From the IMG/VR virus record IMGVR_UViG_3300046171_000015, positions 1 through 29,876 of that record: DNA of 29,876 bases. One strand, given 5' to 3'. Position 1 is the first letter of the stretch; every line of letters begins with the position of its first letter. Positions 1,251 through 29,876 of the stretch are shown piece after piece. The position numbers were made by a program, and so were the translations under genes. The DNA comes from a virus. Under the pieces are notes generated by a model. It worked only from the letters and a program-made list of their open reading frames with translations. It did not search any database and was not told the DNA's origin.

Positions 1251-1283
1251 TACAAAATAAATTAAAAACTATTATATATTAAT
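1251..1283 (+). promoter_or_regulatory. Late-gene element, copy 1 (before protease)
   Basis: tacaaaataaa at 1251-1261, a 10-bp spacer, then ttatatattaat at 1272-1283, directly abutting the ATG at 1284. The same two-block layout with the same spacing precedes the genes at 2746 and 5298. It is likely a late promoter or translation-initiation element. Because the box touches the ATG, a classical -7 role would put the transcription start inside the gene, so the mechanism is open. Confidence 0.6.
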
Positions 1284-2453
1284 ATGCGAATTGTAGAACT
1301 TATTTTAGACGAAGAACAAGAGATAGGGATTGAAGCTATTAGCGTAGTAGAAAACCCAGCAATAGAAGAAGATTTTATTGCACTTAAATCACAAGAGTTT
1401 AAACTTGCAGAGGTAGATAAAGAAAAGCGAATACTTATGGGTGCTTTACTTATACCAAACAAGCCTATATACAGACGCAACGGAGAAGATGAGTACTACA
1501 TATATTTCTCAAAAGATACTGTCTTAAAAGCCTCTCAAATGTACTTAATGCAAGGCAAACAAAACAACTCAACCTTAGAACACCAATACCAAATAAACGG
1601 ACTTAGTTTAGTAGAAAGTTGGATAGTAGAAGATAAGGTACACGACAAATCTGTAAAGTACGGAATGGACTTGCCACTTGGTACTTGGGTAGGTGCTGTA
1701 AAAGTAAACAACGAACAAATCTGGAACGAGTTTGTAAAGACTGGTAAGGTCAAAGGCTTTAGCATAGAGGGTTACTTTGCTGACAAAATGGAACGCCCAA
1801 AAGAAAGCATAAAAGACGAACTTGCCAAAATAGAAGAAGCAGAAGCAGAATATTTACTTGCACAAGTTAAAGCTATTATTAAAAACGATAAGCGTGTTAA
1901 GGGCGGTAAGAAGATGGTTCTTGAAAGTTATAGCGATTACCCAAGCGGAGTTAAAAACAACGCTAAAAGAGGCTTAGAATTAAACGAGAAAGTAAACAAC
2001 AAGTGTGCTACACAAGTAGGAAAAATAAGGGCGCAACAATTAGCACAAGGTAAGCCAATCTCTAAGGAAACTATTAAGCGTATGTATTCTTATTTGTCAA
2101 GAGCAGAAGAATACTACGACGAGGGCGATACTAAGGCTTGTGGCACTATCTCTTATTTATTGTGGGGTGGTTTAGCTGGTAAGCGATACGCTGCTAAAAA
2201 ACTAAAAGAGTTTGGGGAGTTAAGCCTTGCTTCTATGACTGTAAACGAGGACTATGCTATTATTGACGATAGACTTGCTTACTCAACAGAAGAAAAAGCT
2301 AAAGAGATGTCCTCAGATTTAGGTTGTCAAGGAATACACACACACGATTACGAGGGTAAAACTTGGTATATGCCTTGTGAACAGCATAGCGTTGATATGT
2401 ACGACAAATGCCCAAAAGGTTACAAGAAAAAGGATGGCAAATGCGTAAAGTAG
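1284..2453 (+). CDS. XkdF-like prohead protease with C-terminal extension
   Basis: This is a putative capsid maturation serine protease that would cleave scaffold and capsid proteins inside the procapsid. The N-terminus (VELILDEEQEIGIEAIS, then ENPAIEEDF) and the motifs STLEHQ (His100), LVESW (Ser112), LGTW and KGFSIEG (158-163) follow the pattern of XkdF-like S78-type phage proteases. After about residue 200 comes an extra domain (DYPSGVKNNAKRGLELNE, KRMYSYLSRAEEYYDEGD, SYLLWGG), and the protein ends in a Cys-rich tail (CPKGYKKKDGKCVK). This makes it longer than a bare protease (389 aa). It sits just upstream of scaffold-like and capsid genes, the usual place. The start ATG follows the late element directly. 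The catalytic assignment is inferred from motif spacing; the role of the extension is unknown. Confidence 0.8.
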   Translation: MRIVELILDEEQEIGIEAISVVENPAIEEDFIALKSQEFKLAEVDKEKRILMGALLIPNKPIYRRNGEDEYYIYFSKDTVLKASQMYLMQGKQNNSTLEHQYQINGLSLVESWIVEDKVHDKSVKYGMDLPLGTWVGAVKVNNEQIWNEFVKTGKVKGFSIEGYFADKMERPKESIKDELAKIEEAEAEYLLAQVKAIIKNDKRVKGGKKMVLESYSDYPSGVKNNAKRGLELNEKVNNKCATQVGKIRAQQLAQGKPISKETIKRMYSYLSRAEEYYDEGDTKACGTISYLLWGGLAGKRYAAKKLKEFGELSLASMTVNEDYAIIDDRLAYSTEEKAKEMSSDLGCQGIHTHDYEGKTWYMPCEQHSVDMYDKCPKGYKKKDGKCVK

Positions 2454-2712: not shown

Positions 2713-2745
2713 TGCAAAATTAATTTTTAACACTTATATATTAAT
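2713..2745 (+). promoter_or_regulatory. Late-gene element, copy 2 (before scaffold-like gene)
   Basis: tgcaaaattaa at 2713-2723, a 10-bp spacer, then ttatatattaat at 2734-2745, abutting the ATG at 2746. The 12-mer and spacing are identical to copy 1. Confidence 0.6.
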
Positions 2746-3366
2746 ATGAATACAAATGATATGATATCAAAAATCAAAGAAGTTGTAGGCTTGTCCGAAG
2801 AGATTAAGCTTGAGCAACAAACTTTAGAGAACGGTGCTATCTTGGAAGCTGAAAGTTTTGAGGCTGGTCAAGAAGTTTTTATCGTTTCTGAAGATGAGAA
2901 AATTGCCGTACCGGTTGGGAGATACCAAATGGAAGACGGACGTATTTTAGTAGTAGCTGAAGAAGGTCTTATTGCTGAGATTAAAGCAGAGGAAGAAGAA
3001 GAAGAAGAAGAAGTAGAGGCACAAGAAGAACTTGAAGAAGAAAAAGAAGAAATGGGATACGCTACTAAAGAAGAACTTGCTGAGGTTAAAGAAATGATTG
3101 AGGAAATTAAAGCTATGCTTGAGCCAAAGGAAGAAATGGGCGAAGAGTTAAGTGCTGATGACTTAGGCAACCTTATGACTGAGGAACTTGCTAAACACGA
3201 GAAGTTAAGCGAAGTACCAGAAGAAGTACAAGAGGAACTAAACCAACCCGCTGCTGAGCCAATTAAGGCTAACCCAGAGGTACAAACAAAACAAAATTTC
3301 AAGTTTGCTAACAATAGAAAACAAAGCACACTTGACAGAGTATTAAACAAAATAATTAACAACTAA
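2746..3366 (+). CDS. Acidic scaffold-like protein
   Basis: A 206-aa, very glutamate-rich protein immediately upstream of the major capsid gene. Residues about 80-105 are almost a pure Glu run. The N-terminal third looks folded (EAESFEAGQEVFIVSEDE, VPVGRYQMEDGRILVV). The C-terminus is basic (FANNRKQSTLDRVLNKIINN). A folded or acidic coiled region with a short basic C-terminal helix is the architecture of many phage scaffolding proteins, in which the basic helix binds capsid subunits; the neighbouring protease would then degrade it during maturation. Similarity is by composition and position only, so a decoration or assembly-factor role is possible. It carries its own late element directly before the ATG. 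Confidence 0.65.
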   Translation: MNTNDMISKIKEVVGLSEEIKLEQQTLENGAILEAESFEAGQEVFIVSEDEKIAVPVGRYQMEDGRILVVAEEGLIAEIKAEEEEEEEEVEAQEELEEEKEEMGYATKEELAEVKEMIEEIKAMLEPKEEMGEELSADDLGNLMTEELAKHEKLSEVPEEVQEELNQPAAEPIKANPEVQTKQNFKFANNRKQSTLDRVLNKIINN

Positions 3367-5264: not shown

Positions 5265-5297
5265 TACAAAATAAAATAGTTTTGTTTATATATTAGT
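5265..5297 (+). promoter_or_regulatory. Late-gene element, copy 3 (before 118-aa gene)
   Basis: tacaaaataaa at 5265-5275 (identical to copy 1), a 10-bp spacer, then ttatatattagt at 5286-5297, abutting the ATG at 5298. It lies directly after a terminator, so the downstream portal operon needs a new transcription start here. This makes a promoter role attractive. Confidence 0.65.
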
Positions 5298-5654
5298 ATG
5301 AAGATTATAACAACAAGTGGCAGTAAAACTTTCAATGTTATTCCACGTCAATTTATTAGCGGTACTGTTGATGTTTTATTAATAGATAATGAAACTGGGA
5401 GAAGCTTTAAAAATACCCCTACCGCTGAAACTGTTGGCAATTATATGACTTTCACAGTTGCTTTTGGTACTTTAACTGAGGGCAAATTTTACACATTTGA
5501 GGTTAATATAAACCCTAATGGTGCTAACCTTTACAAAGACAAGGTGTTTTGTACAGACCAAACTATAAACCAAGCAACAAATAATTACTACTCTGTTAAT
5601 GATGGAGAATACACCACAGAGAATAGTTTTGATAACGATTACATTATTTTATGA
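5298..5654 (+). CDS. Conserved small structural-region protein (118 aa)
   Basis: A beta-strand-rich 118-aa protein (MKIITTSGSKTFNVIPRQF, LTEGKFYTFEVNI, Asn/Asp-rich C-terminus) with no catalytic motif. The stop overlaps the portal start by 4 bases (ATGA), so it is translationally coupled to portal. Small beta-rich ORFs in this position occur in related phages; a head-decoration or neck role is possible but unproven. It is the first gene of a transcription unit that must start between the terminator at 5263 and the ATG, giving strong reason to place a late promoter there. Confidence 0.6.
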   Translation: MKIITTSGSKTFNVIPRQFISGTVDVLLIDNETGRSFKNTPTAETVGNYMTFTVAFGTLTEGKFYTFEVNINPNGANLYKDKVFCTDQTINQATNNYYSVNDGEYTTENSFDNDYIIL

Positions 5655-7483
5655 ACGATTTAAGAATAGTTAATTTAAGCAGTTACACAAGTCCAGAGAT
5701 TGTAGAGAAGTCTAACAAACAATGGGTAGCTTATGGTAGTGATAATAATTACTTTGGTTACTTAATAGACCGATACAATGGAAGCCCTACAAATAACGCT
5801 ATTATTAATGGTGTTAGTCAAATGATTTACGGAAAAGGCTTAGATGCTTTAGATAGCAATAGAAAGCCAGAGGCTTACGCTAAAATGATTACTTTATTTA
5901 AAAAGGATTGTGTACGCAAGTTGTGTTACGATTTAAAGCTTATGGGTCAATGCTCAATACAAGTTATTTACTCAAAGGATAGAAAAACAATAGCGCAAGT
6001 AGAACACATCCCAGTAGAGAATTTAAGAGCAGAGAAGTGTAACGAGAAAGGCGAAATAACTGGCTACTATTATAGTGATGACTGGAGTAATGTAAAACCA
6101 AGAACAGAACTAAAACGCATACCAGCTTTTGGCACATCAAACGAAAGTATTGAGATTATTTACGTTAAGCCTTACAGAGCTGGTTATAAGTACTATTCAA
6201 GCCCAGACTATCAAGGTGGTTTGCAGTACGCAGAGTTAGAGGAAGAAATATCTAACTACCACTTAAACAACATCCTTAATGGTTTAGCACCATCAATGTT
6301 AATTAACTTTAACAACGGTACACCAAACGCAGAGGAACGCCAAAACTTAGAAAACCGTATTTACTCTAAATTTAGTGGCTCAAGTAATGCTGGTAAGTTT
6401 ATACTTGCCTTTAATGATAACGCAGAGAGCCAAGCTACAATAGAGCCAATACAGTTAAGTGATGCACACAACCAATACCAATTCTTGAGTGATGAGAGTG
6501 GCAAAAAGATTATGGTAGCACACCGAATTGTTTCTCCTATGCTTTTAGGAATTAAAGACAGTACTGGTTTAGGTAATAACGCAGACGAGTTACAGACTGC
6601 TTCTGTGCTTATGGATAACACCGTTATTAGACCATTTCAGCACCTTTTGATAGATGCCTTTGATAGCATACTTGCTTACAATAATATCTCTTTAAAACTA
6701 TATTTTAAGACCTTACAACCGCTTGAGTTTACAGACCTTGAAAACGTAGAGGATGAAGAAACAAGAGAAGAAGAAACTGGCGTAAAGTTAGCCAAAGACT
6801 TACCAAAGGAATTAGGTAGCGATATAGCAGATGCCTTAATAGACTTAGGACAAGACGAAGCAGACCTTTTAAGCGACTTTGACCTAATGGATGAACGAGA
6901 AGTAAACTACGACCAAGAAGATGGCTTAGACGAACTTATAACGGACTTGAACAAACCGAATACCGAAGAAAAAGAAAAAAGCACACTTGCTAAAATCTGG
7001 GAGTTTGTAAGTACTGGAAGCGCAAAGCCTTTTAGAGAAAGCGAACAAGATGGAGAAAGCAAACAAGAAGCTGAAGAGGGTAACACTTTTTTAGTTAGGT
7101 ATATGTATTCTCCACAAAGATACAGCGCAAACTCAAGACCTTTCTGTAAAAAGATGGTAGATGCTAAAAAGGTTTACCGTAAGGAAGATATTATCTCAAT
7201 GGATACAAAAGTAGTTAATGCTGGCTTTGGTAAGGGTGGAAGCGATACTTACTCAATCTGGTTATACAAGGGTGGTGCAAGATGCCAACACAAATGGCTC
7301 AGAAAGACGTATGTACGCAAAGATGGTGCTAAAGGCTTAGGCGATGCAATTACTACAACAGAGGCAAGAAAAAGAGGTTTTAAACCAGAAGCTAACGCAC
7401 AGAAAGTACCAGTAGCACCAAAGGATATGAAGTATAAAGGTTATACCGCTGAATATTGGAACAAAATAGGATTTAAGAACTAA
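5651..7483 (+). CDS. Portal protein with C-terminal extra domain
   Basis: This forms the ring at the capsid vertex through which DNA is packaged and ejected. Residues 1 to about 360 match portals of Bacteroidota siphoviruses: WVAYGSDNNYFGYLIDRYNG near the N-terminus, a helical stem region (EERQNLENRIYSKFSG), and HRIVSPMLLGIKDSTGLGNN followed by ELQTASVLM. An acidic low-complexity linker covers about 365-475. A further conserved-looking domain follows at 478-565 (FLVRYMYSPQRYSANSRPFC, KVYRKEDII, CQHKWLRKTYVRK) with Cys499, Cys545, His547 and Trp549. I recall this extension in other Bacteroidota phage portals; its function is unknown, perhaps connector or minor-head. The stop overlaps the next ATG by 1 base. 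Confidence 0.85.
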   Translation: MNDLRIVNLSSYTSPEIVEKSNKQWVAYGSDNNYFGYLIDRYNGSPTNNAIINGVSQMIYGKGLDALDSNRKPEAYAKMITLFKKDCVRKLCYDLKLMGQCSIQVIYSKDRKTIAQVEHIPVENLRAEKCNEKGEITGYYYSDDWSNVKPRTELKRIPAFGTSNESIEIIYVKPYRAGYKYYSSPDYQGGLQYAELEEEISNYHLNNILNGLAPSMLINFNNGTPNAEERQNLENRIYSKFSGSSNAGKFILAFNDNAESQATIEPIQLSDAHNQYQFLSDESGKKIMVAHRIVSPMLLGIKDSTGLGNNADELQTASVLMDNTVIRPFQHLLIDAFDSILAYNNISLKLYFKTLQPLEFTDLENVEDEETREEETGVKLAKDLPKELGSDIADALIDLGQDEADLLSDFDLMDEREVNYDQEDGLDELITDLNKPNTEEKEKSTLAKIWEFVSTGSAKPFRESEQDGESKQEAEEGNTFLVRYMYSPQRYSANSRPFCKKMVDAKKVYRKEDIISMDTKVVNAGFGKGGSDTYSIWLYKGGARCQHKWLRKTYVRKDGAKGLGDAITTTEARKRGFKPEANAQKVPVAPKDMKYKGYTAEYWNKIGFKN

Positions 7484-15754: not shown

Positions 15755-15771
15755 ATTAAGTATATATTGGT

Positions 15772-15855: not shown

Positions 15856-15874
15856 GTTGTTTAAGTGTTTACAT

Positions 15875-15916
15875 TTTGTTTATTATTTTTTTTATTAAAT
15901 TTTTTTTTATAACTTT
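15875..15916 (+). promoter_or_regulatory. Probable early promoter before the 71-aa gene
   Basis: taactttg at 15909-15916 is a TAnnTTTG box, followed 28 bases later by the ATG at 15945 through an A-rich leader. A TTTG at 15875-15878 followed by tttat resembles the -33 part of the other promoters, but the spacing (30 bp) is longer than usual. It lies just after a terminator, so a start is expected here. Confidence 0.5.
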
Positions 15917-15944
15917 GGGTTATTATTAACATAAAACAAAGACA

Positions 15945-16160: not shown

Positions 16161-16161
16161 G

Positions 16162-16296
16162 ATGACAAGAACAGAAGATATAATAAGAGTAAGAAGCATA
16201 GATGCTAACTACTTAAACGCAAGGATAGAAGCCTTAGAGAATAGAGTACAATACTTAGAACAAATAATAGAAATAGAATATTTAAACGAAGAATAA
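16162..16296 (+). CDS. Small coiled-coil protein (44 aa)
   Basis: It starts 1 base after the previous stop, and its own stop overlaps the next ATG by 1 base. The sequence MTRTEDIIRVRSIDANYLNA then ARIEALENRVQYLEQIIEIE shows heptad-like spacing of Leu/Ile with alternating charges, i.e. a short coiled coil that could dimerise or pair with a neighbour product. Not recognised otherwise. Real translation is supported by the tight spacing on both sides. Confidence 0.6.
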   Translation: MTRTEDIIRVRSIDANYLNARIEALENRVQYLEQIIEIEYLNEE

Positions 16297-16703: not shown

Positions 16704-16732
16704 ACATAAATAAACAAATAAATAAATAAACT

Positions 16733-17029: not shown

Positions 17030-17031
17030 TT

Positions 17032-17061
17032 AAAAGGGGGTTTTTTAACCTCCTTTTTTTT
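17032..17061 (+). terminator. Rho-independent terminator after the SSB-like gene
   Basis: Stem aaaagggggtt (17032-17042), loop tttt, stem aacctcctttt (17047-17057) with one wobble pair, then more T to 17061. The next gene starts 36 bases further; taccttta (17063-17070) could be a weak -7 box for it. Confidence 0.85.
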
Positions 17062-17096
17062 ATACCTTTACAAAAACAAAAACAAACATATAATAA

Positions 17097-17960
17097 ATGA
17101 CTGAACAAGAAACAACACAAGCTATGCTGATGGAACTCATAAAGGAAGAGTGTGCTATTGACACTACTGAAGTTATGGAGTACCCACCAACAGCTTTGAG
17201 TTATGGAGAGAAAACAATACAAACCACAAAAGGAGATATTACGTTCCCTATACCTATTGGAACTTATGGAAACTTCTCATTTGTACAAGCACCACCTAAA
17301 AGTAAAAAAACCTTTTTTGCCTCATTATTAGCTTCTGTATATTTAAGCGGTGGTAATAACTTTGGTGGTAACATACGAGGACACAGAGATGGTAAGTGCC
17401 TTTTACACTTTGACACAGAGCAAGGACACTGGCATAGCCAAAGAGTGTTTAGAAGAGTTTTAGATATGGCTAACGTGCAAGACGTGGGGTGCTACCAGAC
17501 CTATGCACTAAGAACAATAAACTACAAAACAAGGATAGCGTTTATAGAACACATACTAAAAGAAAACGGAGATAAAAACGGTTTAGTTATCATAGATGGT
17601 ATTGCTGACTTAGTAAGTGATGTAAACAACTTAGAGGAAAGTAATTTATGTGTTCAAAAGATAATGGAGTGGAGTGCCAAGTTTAACTGCCATATAGTTA
17701 CTGTAATACATAGCAATTATGGAAGCGAGAAGCCTACTGGACACTTAGGCTCGTTCCTTGAGAAAAAGACAGAAACCCAAATACAATTAGAACTTAACTC
17801 AGTACACAAGGATAACATAACAGTTAAATGTAAAAGGTCAAGAGGCTATGCGTTTGAAACCTTTAGCTTTAGTGTAAACGAGTTAGGACTTCCATTTGTA
17901 GTAGGCGAGATATACGACCCCTTAAAATACTTTATAACAACCAAAGAGAAATTAGGTTAA
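17097..17960 (+). CDS. RecA/RepA-fold ATPase (AAA_25-like), putative replicative helicase or recombinase
   Basis: 287 aa. A P-loop region at 65-72 reads APPKSKKT, a degenerate Walker A in which the usual Gly before Lys-Thr is Lys. LLHFDTEQG (102-110) is the strand carrying the conserved acidic residue, LVIIDG (163-168) is Walker B, and VTVIHSN (201-207) followed by GHLGS (215-219) corresponds to motifs 3/4 of RepA-like ATPases. Such proteins act as hexameric helicases or as RecA-like recombinases in phages. It lies after the SSB gene and immediately before the sigma-like gene (1-base overlap). Which of the two roles applies cannot be decided from sequence. Confidence 0.75.
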   Translation: MTEQETTQAMLMELIKEECAIDTTEVMEYPPTALSYGEKTIQTTKGDITFPIPIGTYGNFSFVQAPPKSKKTFFASLLASVYLSGGNNFGGNIRGHRDGKCLLHFDTEQGHWHSQRVFRRVLDMANVQDVGCYQTYALRTINYKTRIAFIEHILKENGDKNGLVIIDGIADLVSDVNNLEESNLCVQKIMEWSAKFNCHIVTVIHSNYGSEKPTGHLGSFLEKKTETQIQLELNSVHKDNITVKCKRSRGYAFETFSFSVNELGLPFVVGEIYDPLKYFITTKEKLG

Positions 17961-18454
17961 TGAAATCACTTGTAGAACTTGCTTACGACAAGCACAAAAA
18001 TTGGATAGGTATTGTAAAATCCTTTGGCTGTAAACCAAGCTTGGCTGAGGATGTGGTACAAGAAATGTACATCCAGCTGATATGCGATGTTCAAAAAGGC
18101 TTAGACCTTTGGTACAATAACGACATCAATACTTATTACTGCTATAAGGTGCTTAGGGGAATATACTTAAACACCCACAAGAAAGAGGCACGAATGATAA
18201 AAACATACATAGAGGACATAGATGGGGAAGTAAAGCAGATAGATGACTTGGGCATAGACGAGGTACAATATGCAAAGGATAAAACTAAAATAGATAACTT
18301 ACTTGCAGAGATGCGCTGGTACGATAGCAAGGTATTTACTTTAGTAGCTTCTGGGCAAAGTGTAGCATCACTAAGCAGAGAAACAAAGATAAGTTATTAC
18401 AGCCTTTACAATACTTACAGAAACGCACTAAAACACATAAAAGAAAATATATGA
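17960..18454 (+). CDS. Phage RNA polymerase sigma-like factor
   Basis: 164 aa. Residues about 1-45 resemble sigma region 2: a helix with SLAEDVVQEMYIQL, the AEDxVQExY signature of sigma-70 family region 2.1/2.2. Residues about 119-160 (WYDSKVFTLVASGQSVASLS, ETKISYYSLYNTYRNALKHI) look like region 4 with its helix-turn-helix. Spacing and length match minimal ECF-type sigma factors. It would redirect the host polymerase to phage promoters, the obvious candidate being the TTATATATTA element before late genes. It overlaps the ATPase gene by 1 base and the next gene by 4 bases (ATGA). A DNA-binding regulator without sigma activity is an alternative. Confidence 0.65.
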   Translation: MKSLVELAYDKHKNWIGIVKSFGCKPSLAEDVVQEMYIQLICDVQKGLDLWYNNDINTYYCYKVLRGIYLNTHKKEARMIKTYIEDIDGEVKQIDDLGIDEVQYAKDKTKIDNLLAEMRWYDSKVFTLVASGQSVASLSRETKISYYSLYNTYRNALKHIKENI

Positions 18455-18594
18455 AATTAGGAGATTTAGTTTACTACATTACATACTACACGGGGATAAG
18501 ATGGGTAGTTAAAAAGATATGGGGAGAAGATTGCGGATGCGACCAACGTAGAGAAGAGTGGAACGATATAGATTTAGACTTATGGAACAAATAG
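18451..18594 (+). CDS. Small CGC-motif protein (47 aa)
   Basis: ATGA overlap with the sigma-like gene. The product starts MKLGDLVYYITYYTGIRWVV and continues KKIWGEDCGCDQRREEWN. The combination of a GD-x-V-x(2)-I-T...GI start with a GEDCGC-x-(Q/K)RR-x2-WN end is, from memory, a recurring small protein of Bacteroidota phages. The two cysteines with adjacent Arg and Trp suggest a metal or nucleic-acid binding site. The function is unknown. It ends 13 bases inside the next gene. Confidence 0.6.
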   Translation: MKLGDLVYYITYYTGIRWVVKKIWGEDCGCDQRREEWNDIDLDLWNK

Positions 18595-18773
18595 ATAAAA
18601 AAGACTGGAAGCAGTTTAAAGCTGATGTTAAGGGGAAGCTATCACAAGAGCAGTATAAGTTATTGTGTAGGCTTCATTCCAAGTATTACAATCACAAATA
18701 TTACGAGCCTTGCAGTTGCAGTCCTAAAAGGCTTTTACAATGGATTGCAGACATAGACAAAATTTATGATTAA
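18582..18773 (+). CDS. Hypothetical protein (63 aa) with C-x-C motif
   Basis: The start is taken at ATG 18582 (MEQIDKKDWKQFKADVKGKL), overlapping the 47-aa gene by 13 bases; a start at 18558 in the same frame lies deeper inside that gene and is less likely. It is mostly helical, with HSKYYNHKYYEPCSCSPKRL near the C-terminus, a His/Cys-rich patch that could bind zinc. The end overlaps the nuclease gene start by 8 bases. Not recognised beyond being a typical small ORF of this phage group. Confidence 0.55.
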   Translation: MEQIDKKDWKQFKADVKGKLSQEQYKLLCRLHSKYYNHKYYEPCSCSPKRLLQWIADIDKIYD

Positions 18774-19179
18774 AAACATACACAAGTGGGAGAAAGCTGT
18801 AATACTATTATTAAATGCTGATGGCTGGAACTTAACACATACTGGAAAAGGCTTTGAACATTACGACGCTATTGGTACAAGTCCTAAAGGCACAGAAGTA
18901 GTAATAGAGTTTAAGTTTAGAAACAAATACTACAAAGAGAAAATGCTTGAGGTTTACAAGTACGACAAGCTGATAGAAACTGGTAGGATAGCTTTGTATT
19001 TTGTTAATGACCCTAAAGGAAATTATATGTTCTGGCTAAACAACCTGGAAGATTTAAAAGTGAAAGATATGTACTGCCCAGATACTACACTATGGACTAA
19101 AAAGAAAGTATTAAAGCCTTGTTATTTGATTGACGAGAGCCAAGCATCTATAATTAATTTAAACGGATTTAAGAAGTAG
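18766..19179 (+). CDS. PD-(D/E)XK-type nuclease, resolvase-like
   Basis: 137 aa. The core motif is FEHYDAIGTSPKGTEVVIEF followed by KFR: Asp34, then Glu48-x-Lys50, separated by a hairpin, as in PD-(D/E)XK nucleases such as Hjc-type Holliday junction resolvases and VRR-NUC proteins. The N-terminal helix (KWEKAVILLLNADGWNL) precedes it as usual. The C-terminal half (IALYFVNDPKGNYMFWLNNL) supplies further strands. The likely role is processing branched DNA before packaging or degrading host DNA. It is the last gene before an 89-base gap containing a strong promoter. Confidence 0.6.
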   Translation: MIKNIHKWEKAVILLLNADGWNLTHTGKGFEHYDAIGTSPKGTEVVIEFKFRNKYYKEKMLEVYKYDKLIETGRIALYFVNDPKGNYMFWLNNLEDLKVKDMYCPDTTLWTKKKVLKPCYLIDESQASIINLNGFKK

Positions 19180-19210
19180 AATAATTTTTTTTAAAATAAC
19201 TTGTTTATAA

Positions 19211-19243
19211 TTTGTTTATAATAAATATTTTTATATATATTTG
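19211..19243 (+). promoter_or_regulatory. Strong Bacteroidota-type promoter with TTGTTTATAA repeat
   Basis: TTTG at 19211-19214, 21-bp spacer, tatatttg at 19236-19243, then an A-rich leader (aaaacaaaaacaaaATG). ttgtttataa occurs at 19201-19210 and again at 19212-19221, an 11-bp period that could form an operator overlapping the -33 element. The layout is almost the same as the promoter at 5017-5049. Confidence 0.75.
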
Positions 19244-19268
19244 CGTATAACTTTAAAACAAAAACAAA

Positions 19269-19421
19269 ATGACAACACAAGTTAAACAATTCTACAAAGG
19301 AAACCTTTACACATTAACAGTAAGACGAGGGGAAATGATTTATGCTCAATATGAGGACGGATACGAGGTTTATAACCCTGCCTTACAAGATGCTTTAGAA
19401 AAAGTTTGGAAGCACTCATAA
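19269..19421 (+). CDS. Small early protein (50 aa)
   Basis: First gene after the strong promoter at 19211-19243, with an A-rich leader. MTTQVKQFYKGNLYTLTVRR then GEMIYAQYEDGYEVYNPALQ and a helical end ALEKVWKHS. A small beta-hairpin-plus-helix protein seems likely. Not recognised. Its promoter is the strongest-looking host-type promoter in the genome and heads a run of six very small genes, so it is a good candidate for an early host-takeover product, though this is inference only. Confidence 0.6.
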   Translation: MTTQVKQFYKGNLYTLTVRRGEMIYAQYEDGYEVYNPALQDALEKVWKHS

Positions 19422-19442
19422 TTAAACAACAAAACTTAAACA

Positions 19443-19544
19443 ATGGAAACACTTACAGAAACAGAAAAGGCTTGGATAACTATGATGGTTCAAGCCTATG
19501 GAATGAACGAGCAAACTGCACTATCTTATATTCAAAACTTATGA
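19443..19544 (+). CDS. Very small protein (33 aa)
   Basis: METLTETEKAWITMMVQAYG followed by MNEQTALSYIQNL. The leader is A-rich (aacaacaaaacttaaacaATG) and the stop overlaps the next ATG by 4 bases (ATGA). Two short helices with an Ala/Tyr turn, in shape like a minimal three-helix UBA-type fragment. Slight resemblance (ITM near the middle, then acidic helix) to the 45-aa cassette protein at 5075. The function is unknown. Confidence 0.5.
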   Translation: METLTETEKAWITMMVQAYGMNEQTALSYIQNL

Positions 19545-19684
19545 GAACGCAGCTTGACGATTTAAACAAAGAACTTAGGGATATAAACAAAACCCTTAAG
19601 ACCGAAATGCCTTACGAGTTTAGGGCAAGGCTATTGAAACGTAAAGAATACGTTAGAAGCATAATTTATAACATACAAGATTAA
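19541..19684 (+). CDS. Small coiled-coil protein (47 aa)
   Basis: The start at ATG 19541 overlaps the previous stop (ATGA), giving MRTQLDDLNKELRDINKTLK and EFRARLLKRKEYVRSIIYNI. An upstream TTG at 19406 in this frame would run through two other genes and is rejected. The product is a single charged helical hairpin. Not recognised; it may be a partner-binding or DNA-mimic-type peptide, but nothing shows it. Confidence 0.55.
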   Translation: MRTQLDDLNKELRDINKTLKTEMPYEFRARLLKRKEYVRSIIYNIQD

Positions 19685-19688
19685 TAAA

Positions 19689-19877
19689 ATGAAAAAGACA
19701 AAAACTGGATTACACATTCAAACACGCAAAAATAGAATAGAGGTTTACACACAGAAAGAGTTGGAAGCCAAAGAACTTAAAAGAGAACTGCAAAGAGAAA
19801 GAATTATACAAGGTGCTATTATATTTATGTTAGCCTTGTGTGTGGCTTTTGGTTACTTAATTGGTTCTGCAAGTTAG
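19689..19877 (+). CDS. Small single-pass membrane protein (62 aa)
   Basis: A basic N-terminal half (MKKTKTGLHIQTRKNRIEVY, LEAKELKRELQRERIIQG) is followed by one hydrophobic helix GAIIFMLALCVAFGYLIGSA at about residues 42-61 that ends at the C-terminus. This is a tail-anchored topology with a long cytoplasmic charged region. In an early operon such proteins can block superinfection or target host envelope proteins; this is a guess. There is a 4-base gap from the previous gene and 1 base to the next ATG. Confidence 0.6.
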   Translation: MKKTKTGLHIQTRKNRIEVYTQKELEAKELKRELQRERIIQGAIIFMLALCVAFGYLIGSAS

Positions 19878-19878
19878 A

Positions 19879-20133
19879 ATGGACTTACTACAAAAACAAT
19901 CTTACGGACTGTGGTACTCATACTTAATTGAGAAACTTATTGACTGGCAAGAGGCTAAACCTAACAACAAAGATTTAAAGAACTGTGTAAAAGCTATTAC
20001 AGAAATAGGGATACTCTCAAGCCAGTTAATTACAGAGGTAGAGATACTAACCAAAAAAGTAGACCACATAAGAAACGAAAAAAACAAAGAGATACAAAAA
20101 TTAAAACAAGAACTAAAACAATACGAGATATGA
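19879..20133 (+). CDS. Helical early protein with C-terminal coiled coil (84 aa)
   Basis: Start at ATG 19879, 1 base after the previous stop. The N-terminal part is MDLLQKQSYGLWYSYLIEKL then IDWQEAKPNNKDLKNCVKAI; residues about 50-84 form a long charged coiled coil (VEILTKKVDHIRNEKNKEIQ, KLKQELKQYEI). A start at 19861 would lie within the membrane-protein gene and is rejected. The function is unknown. The stop overlaps the zinc-ribbon gene start (ATGA). Confidence 0.55.
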   Translation: MDLLQKQSYGLWYSYLIEKLIDWQEAKPNNKDLKNCVKAITEIGILSSQLITEVEILTKKVDHIRNEKNKEIQKLKQELKQYEI

Positions 20134-20240
20134 ACTATTGGGAAACACCAGACGAGATAACCTATTGTAGAACGTGCGAAACGCCAACAAACGGAGAAAC
20201 CTACTGCTGTCGTGATTGCTATAATTATGACCTTGAATAA
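20130..20240 (+). CDS. Tiny zinc-ribbon-like protein (36 aa)
   Basis: ATGA overlap with the previous gene. MNYWETPDEITYCRTCETPT is followed by NGETYCCRDCYNYDLE. Two C-x2-C knuckles (CRTC and CRDC, with one extra Cys) about ten residues apart form a minimal zinc ribbon or rubredoxin-like knuckle pair. It ends 1 base before the exonuclease ATG. Such tiny ribbons may bind DNA or a host protein. Overlaps on one side and abutment on the other argue for true translation. Confidence 0.6.
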   Translation: MNYWETPDEITYCRTCETPTNGETYCCRDCYNYDLE

Positions 20241-20241
20241 T

Positions 20242-21015
20242 ATGGATAAGATAAAACTATTAGACAACAAGTATTACGACAAAGCAGAACTGCTTAAGCG
20301 TATGGAAGATGACACTTTTTACTATGGGGAACTAAACACCCTTGCCCTTAGTAGTAGTAGCCTTAAACAGCTTCTATCAAGTCCTAAGACGTATAACTTT
20401 AGCTTGAAGTATGGGGGTGGGGATAGCGCAGCTTTAAGGGCTGGTGCTTTGTTTCATTGGGCAATACTTGAGCCAGAGAAGTTTGCCTCTCAAAAGTTTG
20501 TAGAGGTACAGAGCAGAAACACAAAGAAGTTTAAAGAAGCCAAAGAAGAGTTTGGAAGTGTTTACACCGCAAAGGAACGAGGCGAAGCAGAAAGGCTTGT
20601 AGATGCGTTCTACCGAAACGAACACGCAAAGGAACTAATAACTAAAGCAGAGTTTGAAATACCAGCAATAGACAACGTCTTAGGCTTTCCCTTTAGAGGT
20701 AAAGCAGATGTATTAGCCACTAATAGGATAGTGGACTTAAAAACCACCACAAACATCAAGGACTTTAGCTGGAGTGCCAATAAGTACGGATACGATGTAC
20801 AATGCTATTTATATTGCAACCTATTTAACAAAGAATACAAAGACTTCTATTTTCTGGTGTTAGACAAAGGTAGCTTAGACATAGGTATCTTTAACTGTTC
20901 AGAAGAATTTTATTACAGAGGCGAAGAGAAAGTAGAGAAAGCACTTGACTTATACAACAAGTTCTTTATAGAGGGTGCAGATTTAGATAACTATTGCTTA
21001 ACTGGGGAATTATGA
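20242..21015 (+). CDS. RecE-type PD-(D/E)XK exonuclease (DUF3799-like)
   Basis: 257 aa. The motifs match the RecE/YqaJ-like exonucleases of phages that chew 5' ends for strand annealing: LSSSSLKQLLSSPKTYNF near the start, ALRAGALFHWAILEPEKF (66-83) with the conserved His72, then FRGKADVLATNRIVDLKTT with Asp156 and Asp165-x-Lys167, and YGYDVQCYLY with Gln187. The start is taken at ATG 20242, 1 base after the zinc-ribbon stop; an earlier ATG at 20212 lies inside that gene. It would work with the annealing candidate (16296) and SSB-like protein (16733) in recombination-dependent replication. The stop overlaps the next gene (ATGA). Confidence 0.8.
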   Translation: MDKIKLLDNKYYDKAELLKRMEDDTFYYGELNTLALSSSSLKQLLSSPKTYNFSLKYGGGDSAALRAGALFHWAILEPEKFASQKFVEVQSRNTKKFKEAKEEFGSVYTAKERGEAERLVDAFYRNEHAKELITKAEFEIPAIDNVLGFPFRGKADVLATNRIVDLKTTTNIKDFSWSANKYGYDVQCYLYCNLFNKEYKDFYFLVLDKGSLDIGIFNCSEEFYYRGEEKVEKALDLYNKFFIEGADLDNYCLTGEL

Positions 21016-21140
21016 AACAAAAGAAACACACACAGATACAACGCATACTAAGACTTGAAAACATAGTTGCTCAAATGTATGTACAGATAGAAGCTATTAA
21101 AGTTACATTAGAAAAAAAAGATGAAGAGAAAAAAGATTGA
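21012..21140 (+). CDS. Small coiled-coil protein (42 aa)
   Basis: ATGA overlap with the exonuclease. MKQKKHTQIQRILRLENIVA then QMYVQIEAIKVTLEKKDEEK. A single amphipathic helix with heptad-like Leu/Ile positions and charged ends. It overlaps the next gene by 20 bases in another frame. Not recognised; it could be an exonuclease partner, given coupling, but no evidence beyond position. Confidence 0.5.
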   Translation: MKQKKHTQIQRILRLENIVAQMYVQIEAIKVTLEKKDEEKKD

Positions 21141-21546
21141 CTACATAAGCGGAACAGAAAGTGCTTACACAATGACAGAACAAGAAGAGTTAGCCTATGA
21201 AGAGCAAAAGGCTGGTGTTTATGACGAGCCAAACAGAAAAGAAATGCCAGTATTTAGCGGAGTACTTAAATACTTTCCAGATGCAATAAGAGAAGTAGCC
21301 AAAACATCTTGGATAGGCAACCAACAGCACCACCCTGACAAACCTTTACATTGGGATAGGTCAAAGAGTGGGGATGAGTTAGATGCTTTAACAAGGCACT
21401 TAATGGAAGCTGGAGAGATAGACACAGATAAAATAAGACACTCAGCAAAGGTATGCTGGAGAGCCTTAGCCAACTTACAAAAAGAATTAGAAGAAAATGG
21501 GGAAGCACCCCTTAGTGAATATAATTTAAACAAAGAACAATGGTAA
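21121..21546 (+). CDS. dATP/dGTP diphosphohydrolase-domain protein (DUF5664-like)
   Basis: 141 aa. The block FSGVLKYFPDAIREVAKTSW (46-65), GNQQHHPDKPLHWDRSKSGD, LDALTRHLMEAGEID (88-102) and IRHSAKVCWRALANLQKELE follows the pattern of the N-terminal domain family annotated dATP/dGTP diphosphohydrolase in phages: a helix before the His-Pro loop, a D-x2-x-RHL helix and a final H-x-AKxxxxALxxL helix. It would alter cellular purine dNTP pools. There is no PurZ- or PolA-like gene in the window, so use of 2-aminoadenine is not indicated. The acidic residues in the RHL helix are present; the enzymatic call rests on family memory. Confidence 0.6.
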   Translation: MKRKKIDYISGTESAYTMTEQEELAYEEQKAGVYDEPNRKEMPVFSGVLKYFPDAIREVAKTSWIGNQQHHPDKPLHWDRSKSGDELDALTRHLMEAGEIDTDKIRHSAKVCWRALANLQKELEENGEAPLSEYNLNKEQW

Positions 21547-21656
21547 TACACAACTACATATTTGACAGTTACAGAATAGAACAAGAAAAAATAAAGGAAG
21601 CGATACAACTCCTAAAAGAAAACGGATACACTATATACAAGAAAGAAGAAGTATGA
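21540..21656 (+). CDS. Very small protein (38 aa)
   Basis: It starts 7 bases before the end of the diphosphohydrolase-domain gene and overlaps the methyltransferase start by 4 bases (ATGA). MVIHNYIFDSYRIEQEKIKE then AIQLLKENGYTIYKKEEV: a helix followed by a strand of the kind seen in small two-layer alpha/beta domains (ALxxLKENGYTI pattern). The function is unknown; the overlaps support translation. Confidence 0.5.
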   Translation: MVIHNYIFDSYRIEQEKIKEAIQLLKENGYTIYKKEEV

Positions 21657-22312
21657 AGATACTAAACTTATACGCTTGTTTAGGTGGTAATAGATATAAG
21701 TGGGATGAAGTAACAGACGTTGAGGTTACTGCTGTTGAGTGGGATGAGGAACTGGCAAGATTATACCAGGAACGCTTCCCACAAGACACAGTAATAGTAG
21801 CAGATGCACACCAATATTTATTAGACCATTATAAAGAGTTTGATTTTATCTGGAGTTCTCCACCTTGCCCAAGCCATAGCAGAGCAAGAGGATGGAATAC
21901 AAAACTTGAAACCAAATACCCAGATATGAAGCTGTATGAAGAAATAATAATGCTTGAAACAGTTGCAAAAGGAGAAAACCCAAGATTTAAAGGGAAGTAT
22001 GTAGTGGAGAATGTTATACCTTACTACCAACCTTTAGTGCCAGCACAAAAAAGAGGCAGACATTTGTACTGGACTAATTTTATGCTGCCTTTAAATATAA
22101 ACGAAAGGGAAAACCCACAACTTGGACACACTAAAAATGAGGTAGATGCTTTGTCTGATTTTCACGATTACGATTTCAGAAAGTACAAAGGGAAGCAAGC
22201 TATGAACAAAATAGCAAGGAACTTAGTAGATTATGAAGCTGGTAAAACAATACTTGAAACAGCGATAGGAGTAATAACAAAACAAAATGCAAAACAAACA
22301 GAACTATTTTAA
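21653..22312 (+). CDS. DNA (cytosine-5) methyltransferase, compact
   Basis: 219 aa. Motif I is LNLYACLGGNRYKW (4-17), where the usual F-x-G-x-GG is replaced by A-C-L-GG. Motif II/III is the AVEWDEELARLYQERF and ADAHQYL region. Motif IV is SSPPCPSHSRARG with catalytic Cys72. Motif VI is VVENVIPYY (Glu119-Asn-Val), and motif VIII-like is QKRGRHLYW (132-140). The target-recognition domain is very short. It methylates C5 of cytosine in a short DNA sequence, most likely to protect phage DNA from host restriction, since no partner nuclease lies nearby. It is followed directly by the DnaA-like gene. Confidence 0.8.
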   Translation: MKILNLYACLGGNRYKWDEVTDVEVTAVEWDEELARLYQERFPQDTVIVADAHQYLLDHYKEFDFIWSSPPCPSHSRARGWNTKLETKYPDMKLYEEIIMLETVAKGENPRFKGKYVVENVIPYYQPLVPAQKRGRHLYWTNFMLPLNINERENPQLGHTKNEVDALSDFHDYDFRKYKGKQAMNKIARNLVDYEAGKTILETAIGVITKQNAKQTELF

Positions 22313-22313
22313 T

Positions 22314-22826
22314 ATGAACTTAGACGAACTAATAAAAGAACTAAACACCCTTTACGGATTTGATATAACACAAAGGGTAAGACAAAGACAATACTCGTAT
22401 GCAAGAAAGGTATATTGTAAACTGGCTAAGGAAGTAGGACACACATTACAATTTTTAGGCGGTAAAATAGGCGTATCACACGACTGCGCAATATATCACG
22501 TTAGAACCTTTGATACAATTACACACAGCGATAAAATAATATTTAACAAGATAGTTAAGAAGTTTAGGTTGGATGTAGAATTATGCAAAATGCCAAGAAA
22601 GAAAAAGGTAGTGAAGCAAACAAAACTTAAACCACAAAACAAAGAACTAATAAAAGAAATAACACAAGTACTAAGCAAATGGGAAACAGAAAACCTTATG
22701 CAATTTATAGGTACAAGGCTGATGCCATACGATAAGCTAATAAAAGCTACAAAACCACAAATACGGTCACAAGAAATAAAAGGTGCTAAATTAAAAAGAC
22801 AAGTTAAAAACCCAGTACTGTGCTAA
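22314..22826 (+). CDS. Replication protein with DnaA-like C-terminal DNA-binding domain fold
   Basis: 170 aa from ATG 22314, 1 base after the methyltransferase stop (a possible ATG at 22287 lies within that gene). Residues about 20-70, RQRQYSYARKVYCKLAKEV then GHTLQFLGGKIGVSHDCAIY, follow the pattern of domain IV of DnaA: a basic helix with the R-x-A signature, then L-x-x-IG-x-x-x-GVSH-x2-V/IYHV corresponding to the DnaA signature helix-turn-helix. There is no AAA+ domain. A Lys-rich linker and a helical C-terminus follow. It probably binds a phage origin, perhaps the repeat region at 15249-15319. It is the last gene before the late block. Confidence 0.6.
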   Translation: MNLDELIKELNTLYGFDITQRVRQRQYSYARKVYCKLAKEVGHTLQFLGGKIGVSHDCAIYHVRTFDTITHSDKIIFNKIVKKFRLDVELCKMPRKKKVVKQTKLKPQNKELIKEITQVLSKWETENLMQFIGTRLMPYDKLIKATKPQIRSQEIKGAKLKRQVKNPVLC

Positions 22827-22870
22827 AAAAATAAAGTTATGTTTATATATTAGTAATTCAGTTAACTAAT
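22822..22870 (+). promoter_or_regulatory. Late-gene element, copy 4 (before small terminase)
   Basis: gctaaaaaaat at 22822-22832, 10 bp, then ttatatattagt at 22843-22854. Here the ATG (22884) lies 29 bases downstream, leaving room for a conventional start. An inverted repeat attagt/actaat (22849-22854 and 22865-22870) overlaps the element. Confidence 0.6.
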
Positions 22871-22883
22871 TAAAAACTGATTT

Positions 22884-23156
22884 ATGGACAAAAGAAAATT
22901 TAACAAAGGTACAAAAGGAAACAAAGGAGGCAGACCTACTAAGGCTGCTGAGCAAAAACTAATAGAACGCTTAGATAATATAATAGACAAAGACGAGGCA
23001 ATAGAAACTTTAGGTAAGTTAGTAGCCAAAGGCGATATGAGAGCCTTACAGACCTATTTAAGCTATCGTTACGGAAAGCCTAAAGAAAGTATGGACATCA
23101 ATAGTTCTGAGGGCTTAAACATCAATTTTAGAGATTTAATTAAGTTCGTTGATTAA
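22884..23156 (+). CDS. Terminase small subunit
   Basis: 90 aa. The N-terminus is basic and Gly-rich (KFNKGTKGNKGGRPTKAAEQ, with GGRPTK), followed by helices (LIERLDNIIDKDEAIETLGK) and MRALQTYLSYRYGKPKESMD. This matches small terminase subunits of Bacteroidota phages, which bind the packaging site and load the large subunit. It overlaps the large terminase gene by 8 bases. It has its own late element and leader, so it begins the first late operon. Confidence 0.8.
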   Translation: MDKRKFNKGTKGNKGGRPTKAAEQKLIERLDNIIDKDEAIETLGKLVAKGDMRALQTYLSYRYGKPKESMDINSSEGLNINFRDLIKFVD

Positions 23157-24357
23157 AGTAAAAAAGAAATATATGCCTATTATCGAGAATGATAGTAGGT
23201 ACTTTATTGTTAGTGGTGGTCGTGGGTCTGGGAAGTCATTTTCAGTAAACGCCCTTTTAGTTATGCTTACCTATGAAGCTGGACACGTTATACTATTTAC
23301 ACGCTATACACTAACCTCAGCATACATTTCAATTATACCAGAGTTCTTAGACAAGTTAGAACAGTTTGGGTCAATAGAACACTTCCACATTACTAAAGAC
23401 GAGATAATAAACAAAAAGACTGGCAGCAAGATAATCTTTAGAGGTATCAAGACTTCAAGTGGCGACCAGACAGCAAACCTTAAATCTCTGCAAGGTATTA
23501 CCACTTGGGTAGTAGATGAAGCTGAGGAACTAACAGACGAGCAAAAGTTTGACACCATAGACCTAAGTGTAAGGCAGCAAGGCAAACCAAACAGAGTAAT
23601 ACTTATATTAAACCCTACAACCAAAGAACACTTTATATACAGACGCTTCTTTGAGGAACGAGGGGTACAAGAAGGAAGCAATACACAGAAAGAAAACACA
23701 ACTTACATACACACCACTTACATAGACAACATAGACAACCTATCTAAAAGCTACATAGACCAAATAGACCAAATGCGTAAGCGCAGACCAGAGAAGTACA
23801 AACAACAAATGCTTGGTGCTTGGATGAGTAAAGCTGAGGGTGTTATATTTAGCAACTGGAGTATAGGGGAATTTAAAAGAACAAGCGTAAGTGTGTGGGG
23901 TCAAGATTATGGTTTTGCAGCAGACCCAAGTACCTTAGTAGAGGTAAACATAAACACCAGCACCAAAACAATCTATTTAAAGGAATGCTTTTACTTGCCA
24001 AGACTAACCACATCACAAATTGCAGAACTAAACCTTAAACACGCTAATAGTGGGTTGATTGTAGGCGATAGTGCAGAGCCAAGACTACTAAGCGAAATAA
24101 AAGCCAAAGGGTGTAACGTAAAGCCAAGCATAAAAGGGCAAGGAAGTGTAACATACGGAATAAGCCTACTACAAGACTATGACCTGGTGGTAAGTCCAGA
24201 CAGTACAAACCTTATCAAAGAACTAAACAACTACCGCTGGTTAGAACGCAAAAGCAACACACCAATAGACAAGTACAATCACTTAATAGATGCTATTAGA
24301 TACGCAGTAGGCTACCAGTTACAAAACCCAAATAGAGGTAAGTATATAGTTCACTAA
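23149..24357 (+). CDS. Terminase large subunit (packaging ATPase-nuclease)
   Basis: 402 aa from TTG 23149, which gives IKVKKKYMPIIENDSRYFIV, the usual start of this family (PBSX/Terminase_3-like); an ATG at 23173 would drop eight residues. Walker A is GGRGSGKS (23-30), Walker B VVDEAEE (121-127) and motif III ILNPT. The nuclease domain carries GQDYGFAADPSTLVEV (Asp253), IVGDSAEPRLL (Asp307) and HLIDAIRYA (Asp381), a complete RNase-H-like acidic triad. It drives DNA into the procapsid and cuts it. The circularly permuted assembly fits a headful (pac) mechanism, although permutation can also come from assembly of cos ends. Confidence 0.9.
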   Translation: MIKVKKKYMPIIENDSRYFIVSGGRGSGKSFSVNALLVMLTYEAGHVILFTRYTLTSAYISIIPEFLDKLEQFGSIEHFHITKDEIINKKTGSKIIFRGIKTSSGDQTANLKSLQGITTWVVDEAEELTDEQKFDTIDLSVRQQGKPNRVILILNPTTKEHFIYRRFFEERGVQEGSNTQKENTTYIHTTYIDNIDNLSKSYIDQIDQMRKRRPEKYKQQMLGAWMSKAEGVIFSNWSIGEFKRTSVSVWGQDYGFAADPSTLVEVNINTSTKTIYLKECFYLPRLTTSQIAELNLKHANSGLIVGDSAEPRLLSEIKAKGCNVKPSIKGQGSVTYGISLLQDYDLVVSPDSTNLIKELNNYRWLERKSNTPIDKYNHLIDAIRYAVGYQLQNPNRGKYIVH

Positions 24358-24385
24358 AATAATTTAAAATTGTTTATATATTAAT
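24353..24385 (+). promoter_or_regulatory. Late-gene element, copy 5 (before tail chaperone)
   Basis: actaaaataat at 24353-24363, 10-bp spacer, then ttatatattaat at 24374-24385; the ATG at 24398 is 12 bases downstream. Confidence 0.6.
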
Positions 24386-24397
24386 AAGTAAAGTAAT

Positions 24398-25054
24398 ATG
24401 AAAGTTAATTTAAGAATACCAACAAGCCTTAACGAAATAACACTTGGACAGTACCAAGAGTTTGCTAAGTTAGATGGCAAGTTAGAAGATACACACGATA
24501 CAGCGATACAACTTAAGATTGTAGAGATATTTTGCAAAGTGCCAGAGATAGTAGTACGCAATATGAAAGCCACAGACATAGCTGAGGTATGCGAGATAAT
24601 AAATACTATGTTTGACACTAACCACCAGCTAATAAATAAGTTTAGTTTAGGTGGTGTAGATTATGGCTTTATTCCAGAACTTGACGATATGACCTTTGGC
24701 GAGTATATGGACTTAGACACTTTTATAGGCGATAACGACAACCTACACAGAGCAGTAAACGTACTATTTAGACCAATAGAACACAAACGAGGTGCAAGGT
24801 ACACCATAAAGGAATACAACCCAGACACAAGCGATACCGCTAAAGACTTCCCCTTAGATGTAGTATTAGGTGCTATTGTTTTTTTTTACAGTTTAGGCAA
24901 GGACTTATCTATGGTTATGCTGAACTCTTTGGACAAGAAGAACGAACAAGCTTTAGCACAGCATCTAATTTCACAGCCAAGTGGGGATGGTTTAACGCCC
25001 TCTTTGGCATCGCTCAAGGCGATATTACACGATTTGAAAATATCACTAAACTAA
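24398..25054 (+). CDS. Tail assembly chaperone, short form
   Basis: 218 aa. MKVNLRIPTSLNEITLGQYQ then EFAKLDGKLEDTHDTAIQLK; this opening (RIPTSL-x-EITL-x-QYQ) I associate with the tail assembly chaperone position of Bacteroidota siphoviruses. The middle has LGGVDYGFIPELDDMTFGEY and FLxRPIEHKRGARYTIKEY-like segments. The zero frame ends with YSLGKDLSMVMLNSLDKK and ILHDLKISLN. A run of nine T (24879-24887) with codons GTT TTT TTT TAC lets ribosomes slip to -1 and extend into the overlapping frame, as in lambda gpG/gpGT. It is first of the tail genes and sits far upstream of the tape measure. Confidence 0.75.
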   Translation: MKVNLRIPTSLNEITLGQYQEFAKLDGKLEDTHDTAIQLKIVEIFCKVPEIVVRNMKATDIAEVCEIINTMFDTNHQLINKFSLGGVDYGFIPELDDMTFGEYMDLDTFIGDNDNLHRAVNVLFRPIEHKRGARYTIKEYNPDTSDTAKDFPLDVVLGAIVFFYSLGKDLSMVMLNSLDKKNEQALAQHLISQPSGDGLTPSLASLKAILHDLKISLN

Positions 25055-29336: not shown

Positions 29337-29473
29337 TAAAAAATATACTTGAACTTTTAAAACACGCAAACGGAGAAACGGAAACAATCCGCATAGCACA
29401 AGGTAAAAACAAACTACCCTTGACACTAAAAGAGGGGTACAAAGCACTTAAACAAGAGATACAATGGCGATAG
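29333..29473 (+). CDS. Small protein between tail gene and tape measure (46 aa)
   Basis: ATGA overlap with the large tail gene; its end overlaps the tape-measure start by 10 bases. MIKNILELLKHANGETETIR then IAQGKNKLPLTLKEGYKALK and QEIQWR. Helix, short basic loop, helix. Not recognised. The overlaps on both sides mean ribosomes move from tail gene to this ORF and then to the tape measure, so it is probably translated. Confidence 0.55.
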   Translation: MIKNILELLKHANGETETIRIAQGKNKLPLTLKEGYKALKQEIQWR

Positions 29474-29876
29474 AGAAAACAATTAACATAGATGTAAATT
29501 CTAAGAAAGCACAAAAAGACGTTAAGAATTTAGAGAAGTCTATTGAGGGTGTAAACAAAGAAGTTAAAGATACAACACAATCTACACAAGCTATGAGTGG
29601 AACGCTTGACAAAGCTACTGGTGGTGCTGTATCTAAGTTTAACGGTCTTAAGGGTACTTTAAAAGGCGTTATAACGAGTTTTAAAAGTCTTAGGATTGCC
29701 ATAATTGCAACTGGTATAGGTGCTTTACTTATAGCTGTTACTTCTTTAGGGCAAGCCTTTACAAGAAGCGAAGAGGGGCAAAACAAATTTGCTAAGATAC
29801 TTGGTGTTATTGGTAGTGTTGTAGATAACCTTTTAGACTTACTTGCTAATTTAGGGGAGAGTATAATAAGCGTATT
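29464..29876 (+). CDS. Tape measure protein, N-terminal part (runs off window end)
   Basis: This is the first 137 codons of a tail tape-measure protein, which sets tail length and passes through the tail tube. The ATG overlaps the end of the upstream 46-aa gene by 10 bases. The N-terminus is Lys/Glu-rich and helical (KKAQKDVKNLEKSIEGV). A hydrophobic segment follows at about residues 76-95, as is common in siphovirus tape measures. The frame is open to the last base; the final two bases (tt) join the first base of the window (t) to make a Phe codon, and the frame then continues at base 2. Joined length is 553 aa, short for the family, implying a tail of very roughly 80 nm at about 0.15 nm per residue. 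Its place after tail chaperone and tail genes fits. The join is seen in the sequence; the function is inferred from position and composition. Confidence 0.85.
   Translation, partial: MAIEKTINIDVNSKKAQKDVKNLEKSIEGVNKEVKDTTQSTQAMSGTLDKATGGAVSKFNGLKGTLKGVITSFKSLRIAIIATGIGALLIAVTSLGQAFTRSEEGQNKFAKILGVIGSVVDNLLDLLANLGESIISV

Follow-up and report, generated by a model that had tools for sequence, protein, structure and literature searches.

A repeated element upstream of late genes

The stretch analyzed here (hereafter the window) is an IMG/VR virus record, IMGVR_UViG_3300046171_000015, of 29,876 bases. It carries packaging and structural genes, an early-type region that includes a gene for a sigma factor, and a short repeated element, the 12-mer TTATATATTAAT/GT (Table 1). 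An exact search of both strands bore out the positions given for this 12-mer in a preliminary description of the window: 1272, 2734, 5286, 22843 and 24374 are all the copies, five on the + strand and none on the - strand. Simulated windows contained a mean of 0.02 exact copies, with a maximum of 1 in 200 simulations. An AAAA occupied positions -18 to -15 from the 12-mer, in the same register, at 5/5 copies, and the 12-mer together with an AAAA 14 bp ahead of it turned up in none of the 200 simulated windows. The preliminary description was therefore right on the fixed spacing of an A-rich block and too cautious in claiming it for at least four copies; the identical 11-mer tacaaaataaa that it reported was found at copies 1272 and 5286.

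A weight matrix derived from 75 sites in related phages, with the window left out, scored the five window sites at 28.1-36.9 bits and the next best window position at 9.4, with maxima of 5-16 bits on Markov sequence. The signal in the window is all-or-none and far from chance. The matrix found the five late sites only: in agreement with the first reading, no copy preceded the early-type genes at 15356-22826 (NinG-like, AAA protein, sigma, exonuclease and methylase), and none was seen before genes inside the operons of the window. The ATG touches the 12-mer at 1272, 2734 and 5286, and lies 12 nucleotides (nt) further on at 24374 and 29 nt further on at 22843.

The window gene downstream of each copy is of late (packaging or structural) type. 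The claim that a structural gene always follows held for the protease, the 118-aa/portal operon, which continues through tail-type genes, endolysin and holin, and the small terminase (TerS); the tail chaperone label for open reading frame (ORF) 24398 found no support, this ORF having no clear match. The product of ORF 2746, first called scaffold-like, has no assigned function and shares a PHROG with the protease.

The motif search with spacing in related genomes that had been proposed covered 1.51 Mb of sequence from relatives, retrieved by way of their sigma or large terminase (TerL). There TTATATATTA occurred in 243 copies on the late strand versus 5 on the other strand. The consensus of 149 distinct ORF-preceding sites was CTAAAAwAAwwTAAwwwtGT-TTATATATTARTR, with AAAA at exactly -18 to -15 in 97-99% of sites. 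The element of the relatives is thus a 32-bp bipartite sequence of fixed spacing, CTAAAAwAA-N11-TTATATATTARt. The pattern AAAA-N14-TTATATATTADT was present in 2-5 copies in 25/25 TerL-clade records, on a single strand in each record, and a reversed control pattern gave no copies in the same 25 records. When viral contigs were scanned for the touching pattern by itself, at least 71 new contigs were recovered, all of them encoding homologues of proteins of the window phage; among the matches listed, every touching element adjoined one of the late genes of this phage.

Co-occurrence with homologues of the 164-aa sigma, also proposed at the outset, was confirmed in the long records of the set: the sigma gene was present in 9/9 TerL-clade records of 24.5 kb or more. 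The records without sigma are shorter fragments, three of which are doubtful because of how far upstream they reach; one of these starts immediately downstream of the expected sigma position and the other two start in the same early region.

Table 1. Coordinates of predicted promoters, genes and other features in the window
Feature	Position	Strand	Remarks
Predicted late promoter 1	1252..1283	+	A-rich -35-like block acAAAATAAA and box TTATATATTAAT; predicted start 1284 = A of protease ATG
Predicted late promoter 2	2714..2745	+	Predicted start 2746 = A of ATG
Predicted late promoter 3	5266..5297	+	Predicted start 5298 = A of ATG of 118-aa gene, then portal
Predicted late promoter 4, before terminase operon	22823..22854	+	Predicted start 22855, leader 29 nt
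Predicted late promoter 5, before ORF 24398	24354..24385	+	Predicted start 24386, leader 12 nt
ECF-type sigma factor, 164 aa	17960..18454	+	Region 2 residues 1-84, region 4 residues 100-164
Protease (Peptidase_S78_2)	1284..2453	+	First gene of late unit 1
Late protein without assigned function	2746..3366	+	PHROG 24921 in common with protease; first gene of late unit 2
118-aa gene	5298..5654	+	Head of portal/tail/lysis operon
Portal protein	5651..7483	+
Small terminase-like protein (TerS)	22884..23156	+	DUF5681-like
Large terminase (TerL)	23149..24357	+	Terminase_3
Late protein without assigned function, 218 aa	24398..25054	+	PHROG 32199
Host-type promoter TTG-N21-TATATTTG before early ORF 19269	19212..19243	+	Leader ~20-25 nt
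Host-type -7 box TAACTTTG before early ORF 15945	15910..15917	+	Leader ~20-25 nt
Terminator-like hairpin	17032..17057	+	Separates sigma operon (17097-18454) from genes upstream
Terminator-like hairpin	5237-5257		Directly before late promoter 3
Terminator-like hairpin	15828-15851

The phage sigma factor and the classes of box

By profile and modelled fold, the 164-aa protein is a sigma factor of the extracytoplasmic function (ECF) type. Single-sequence Pfam matches to Sigma70_r2/r4_2 were weak and below cut-off. The gene matched PHROG 1740 at 4e-5, and a profile of 19 related sigmas matched SigR region 2 and SigL in the PDB at E 2e-4, with SigW, SigE and RpoE weak. An AlphaFold2 model (predicted local distance difference test score 84.5) consists of two helical domains, residues 1-84 and 100-164, joined by a linker (89-98) that was modelled at low confidence. 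Domains of the model matched RpoE/sigmaE region 2 (Z 9.6, root-mean-square deviation 2.6 over 80 residues) and Escherichia coli sigmaE region 4 with -35 DNA (2h27; Z 9.2, 2.7 over 65 residues). The layout is that of ECF factors (group 4 of the sigma-70 family), namely a short protein with regions 2 and 4 only and a linker between them. PHROG, PDB profile and fold matches thus establish as real what had been listed as a sigma-like gene. When the named phage collection was searched by tblastn with the window sigma, no matches were obtained; the Nonlabens (Persicivirga) phages P12024L/S were found through TerL, and their sigma through its annotation. A scan of genome contigs gave one distant sigma, in a metagenome-assembled genome of Bacteroidia.

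Among the relatives, the box changed in parallel with the sigma. Promoters with TTATATATTA occurred only with sigmas of 56-100% identity to that of the window. With sigmas at 34-52% identity, the same orthologous genes carried boxes ACGTTATATA, ACGATATATA or ACTATATA, and boxes CGTTATATA and CGATATATA (classes B and C) and ACTATATA were found only at sigma identities of 52% or less. P12024L/S and contigs L165-L170, whose sigma is ~24% or less identical to that of the window, had tAAAACAAA...CGTTAATA. In every box class, the commonest distance from the start of the box to the ATG was 12 nt. A further signal in class-A loci, 'ACTATATA at 24 nt', lay mostly within coding sequence and was rejected as coding conservation.

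TerS genes common to the classes provide natural controls. In contigs L225, L224, L075, L076, L211 and L212, TerS is 84-88% identical to class-A TerS and the sigmas are only 39-48% identical, and each of these six contigs has the box of its own sigma class; in the TerS tree, classes B and C are nested inside A. Across this highly divergent sigma family, the box tracks the sigma region and not the gene that it precedes.

Predicted start site and competing explanations

In 79/79 leader-containing copies, position 11 of the element is T and position 12 a purine (counting from 0), and the same T-purine step was found in 37/37 distinct leader contexts spanning three box classes. Bacterial transcription usually prefers to start at a pyrimidine-purine step. 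From its invariance we infer a start at position 12: transcription likely begins at the base after the 12-mer, which in the touching copies is the A of the ATG. Such a start would place the box TTATATAT at -12 to -5. The -7 box of Flavobacterium johnsoniae, TANNTTTG, also occupies -12 to -5, with the start 4-5 nt beyond (PMC6847099). The initial objection, that an ordinary -7 box would not touch the ATG, is thereby answered, since flavobacterial -7 boxes lie at the same distance; the geometry would be ordinary for the phylum, and the missing leader the unusual point.

Geometry and T-purine step would both fit an mRNA beginning at the ATG. The start-overlapping promoter and the leaderless mRNA, originally offered as separate options, are the same thing here and are retained, and a translation signal, the third option, is disfavoured. 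Three of the five late mRNAs of the window are predicted to be leaderless, the terminase and ORF 24398 units having leaders of 29 and 12 nt. Among predicted F. johnsoniae transcripts, 87% have leaders >10 nt (PMC6847099), and leaderless mRNAs make up only 5.5% in F. psychrophilum (PMC9723704).

The best explanation of these data, which we hold to be highly probable from sequence comparison, is that the five copies are late promoters at which the host RNA polymerase is guided by an ECF-type sigma of the phage itself, as the preliminary description had considered plausible; it is backed by the relatives, in which box class parallels sigma class and not the downstream gene. The host is probably a marine flavobacterium. 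Early genes, including the sigma gene, would be transcribed from host-type promoters, and the new sigma would then direct the polymerase to CTAAAAwAA-N11-TTATATATTARt. Region 4 would read the A-rich block at about -32 to -24 and region 2 the TA box at about -12 to -5. RNA would begin at the base after the 12-mer, which at 3/5 copies would yield a late mRNA translated without a leader. We also consider it rather probable that sigma-specific late promoters fused to start codons are a trait of a widespread phage group of marine flavobacteria, giving leaderless late mRNAs in a host where almost every mRNA has a leader, with a box that re-evolves together with the sigma (at least five classes) and a conserved 12-nt distance from box to ATG.

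Several points weigh against the sigma-dependent late promoters or parts of their interpretation. As a motif in AT-rich DNA, the A-rich block is weak, and in some class-A relatives the box deviates by one change (TTATATATAAGT). The comparison of classes counts related phages and contains few independent switches; other early genes inherited with the sigma, for instance the neighbouring ATPase 17097, could match box class just as closely. Finally, a start site a few bases away would make the mRNAs near-leaderless or deprive them of a complete AUG.

This last point corresponds to a sub-variant compatible with the main claim, in which promoters are sigma-dependent and late and the start lies a few bases up- or downstream of the ATG, giving short-leadered mRNAs or a start inside the ATG with a later start codon. 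Start sites can vary by 1-3 nt, those of phages phiEco32 and 7-11 lie 6-9 bp from the box (PMC8948821), and some copies of the P12024 group have the ATG at 14-15 and not 12. However, the T and purine at 11/12 are invariant in leader-containing copies, 12 nt is the preferred distance whatever the box class, and the orthologues of ORF 24398 can be aligned from their first residue, at 39-52% identity. We judge such an offset unlikely.

Less probable still, at a low chance, is that the late promoters are read by another factor, host ECF or primary sigma, possibly with a phage activator (AAA protein 17097 or the helix-turn-helix-like protein 22287), the phage sigma being incidental. The AAA gene does adjoin the sigma gene, and host ECF promoters of F. 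psychrophilum have a CGT box resembling classes B and C (PMC9723704). Yet box class tracks the phage sigma across a broad span of identities, the sigma gene is present in each long record that contains the element, and the window box lacks TAnnTTTG. This host -7 box, part of the primary promoter of Bacteroidota (TTTG...TAnnTTTG), was not found at the late sites, where the 12-mer contains no TTTG; host-type boxes lie elsewhere, before early genes.

A translation-initiation signal of flavobacterial mRNAs (Kozak-like or an enhancer) in place of a promoter might explain why three window copies touch the ATG, and in flavobacteria, which have no Shine-Dalgarno sequences, A-rich bases are preferred upstream (PMC6847099). 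We find this very improbable, for several reasons. Many TerS elements of the relatives end 22-37 nt before the ATG; measured from its first base, the element can lie 24-49 nt upstream of the start codon; and at orthologues of ORF 24398 it touches the ATG in some cases and stands 12 nt off in others. Moreover, it was not found before operon-internal genes, touching copies have a further block at a fixed place, 30 nt upstream of the ATG, and the box varies with the phage sigma even though translation relies on host machinery. Chance repetition, for which an A+T content of ~65% and a 12-mer of nearly all A and T might speak, is refuted by 5 copies against 0.02 expected and by the 243:5 strand bias.

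Related systems and further features

Phage sigmas with middle or late promoters are known from phiEco32 (gp36) and 7-11 (gp47), whose elements are tAATGTAtA and GTAAtg-16-aCTA (PMC8948821). As in those phages, a strongly diverged phage sigma would act on late genes by way of a short repeated element, and related phages differ in their promoters; the phiEco32 and 7-11 sigmas share ~15% (PMC8948821). Here too, the element precedes late and not early genes, and it co-occurs and covaries with the sigma. Unlike the window phage, phiEco32 and 7-11 infect Enterobacteria, their element sequences are unrelated, their transcripts start 6-9 bp from the box and phiEco32 has no -35 element (PMC8948821), whereas the window phage has a sigma with regions 2 and 4 and an ATG 12 nt from the start of the box. 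Leaderless middle and late mRNAs are described for the Thermus phage phiYS40 (reviewed in PMC3594737), resembling the late transcripts predicted here; the host differs, and the review's passage on these mRNAs mentions no tie between a phage sigma and a box of this kind. Leaders of phage AR9 measure 26-491 nt (PMC5312081). Flavobacterial ECF promoters with the CGT box (motif SM6) are likewise of ECF type and, unlike the late promoters proposed here, belong to a host regulon (PMC9723704).

The Nonlabens phages P12024L/S (genus Inhavirus) have the same late-gene order, a TerL of 54% identity, a start-touching element before late genes and, as counterpart of the sigma, an annotated sigma-70 region 2 protein. 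They differ from the window in the box, CGTTAATA, in an upstream block, AAAACAAA, that lies ~4 nt further away, and in a sigma that is only 24% identical. In P12024L (NC_018272.1) the start-touching element AAAACAAA...CGTTAATA is placed at 3031, 5412, 24771, 26011 and 27612 and is apparently unannotated. We found neither promoter work on P12024L/S nor a description of late promoters of this phage group in the open literature searched, which leaves most subscription journals outside. Phage-sigma late promoters and leaderless phage late mRNAs are each known; their putative combination here, with visible co-evolution of sigma and promoter, was not found described.

Predicting the promoters of a phage sigma from sequence is usually difficult. 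In the present case, five box classes matched to sigma classes are seen across hundreds of related contigs and, if the interpretation is true, form a natural record of sigma-promoter co-evolution. The joint change in specificity is directly testable, with the isolated pair P12024L/S at hand. The predicted leaderless late mRNAs, in a phylum where these are rare, suggest that the phages may exploit or alter host initiation, and the sigmas and promoters are candidate orthogonal pairs for flavobacteria.

Elsewhere in the window, a host-type promoter TTG-N21-TATATTTG was seen within the late region at 5018-5049, intergenic between two terminator-like hairpins and before a short ORF at ~5074. Scans with sigma-70 consensus sequences gave 66 and 58 promoter-like sites versus 50.5 and 44.3 in shuffles and were set aside as uninformative, the DNA being AT-rich and the consensus wrong for the phylum; an Rfam scan of the window gave no matches. 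The ends of the record cut ORFs 2-1249 and 29464-29874, and the gene order is that of P12024L, with the late region crossing the ends; the window is therefore probably a permuted, incomplete genome.

In contigs L245, L243, L238, L230 and similar ones, with sigmas at 41-44%, TerL is only 26-31% identical to that of the window where found, and the start-touching element before the ORF 24398 orthologue is kept; the packaging module seems to have been exchanged around the promoter system. Likeness of TerS across sigma classes often starts only at residue 15 (22884-22925 and orthologues), as if the first ~14 residues and the leader varied as a cassette. The TerS leaders themselves (22855-22883 in the window; among relatives, for example, L018, L021, L008, L225 and L245) contain, between promoter and start codon in most relatives, three half-sites, nTTGA-N4-TCAAn-N5/6-TCAAn, found in 29/37 distinct leaders versus 17% of shuffles. 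Their outer letters covary (CTTGA/TCAAG, TTTGA/TCAAA, ATTGA/TCAAT), the window having a TCAGT...ACTGA variant. An RNA hairpin would fit some copies and was rejected, as in several the 5' arm lies before the predicted start site; this position of the first arm favours a DNA site, either an operator or a packaging site.

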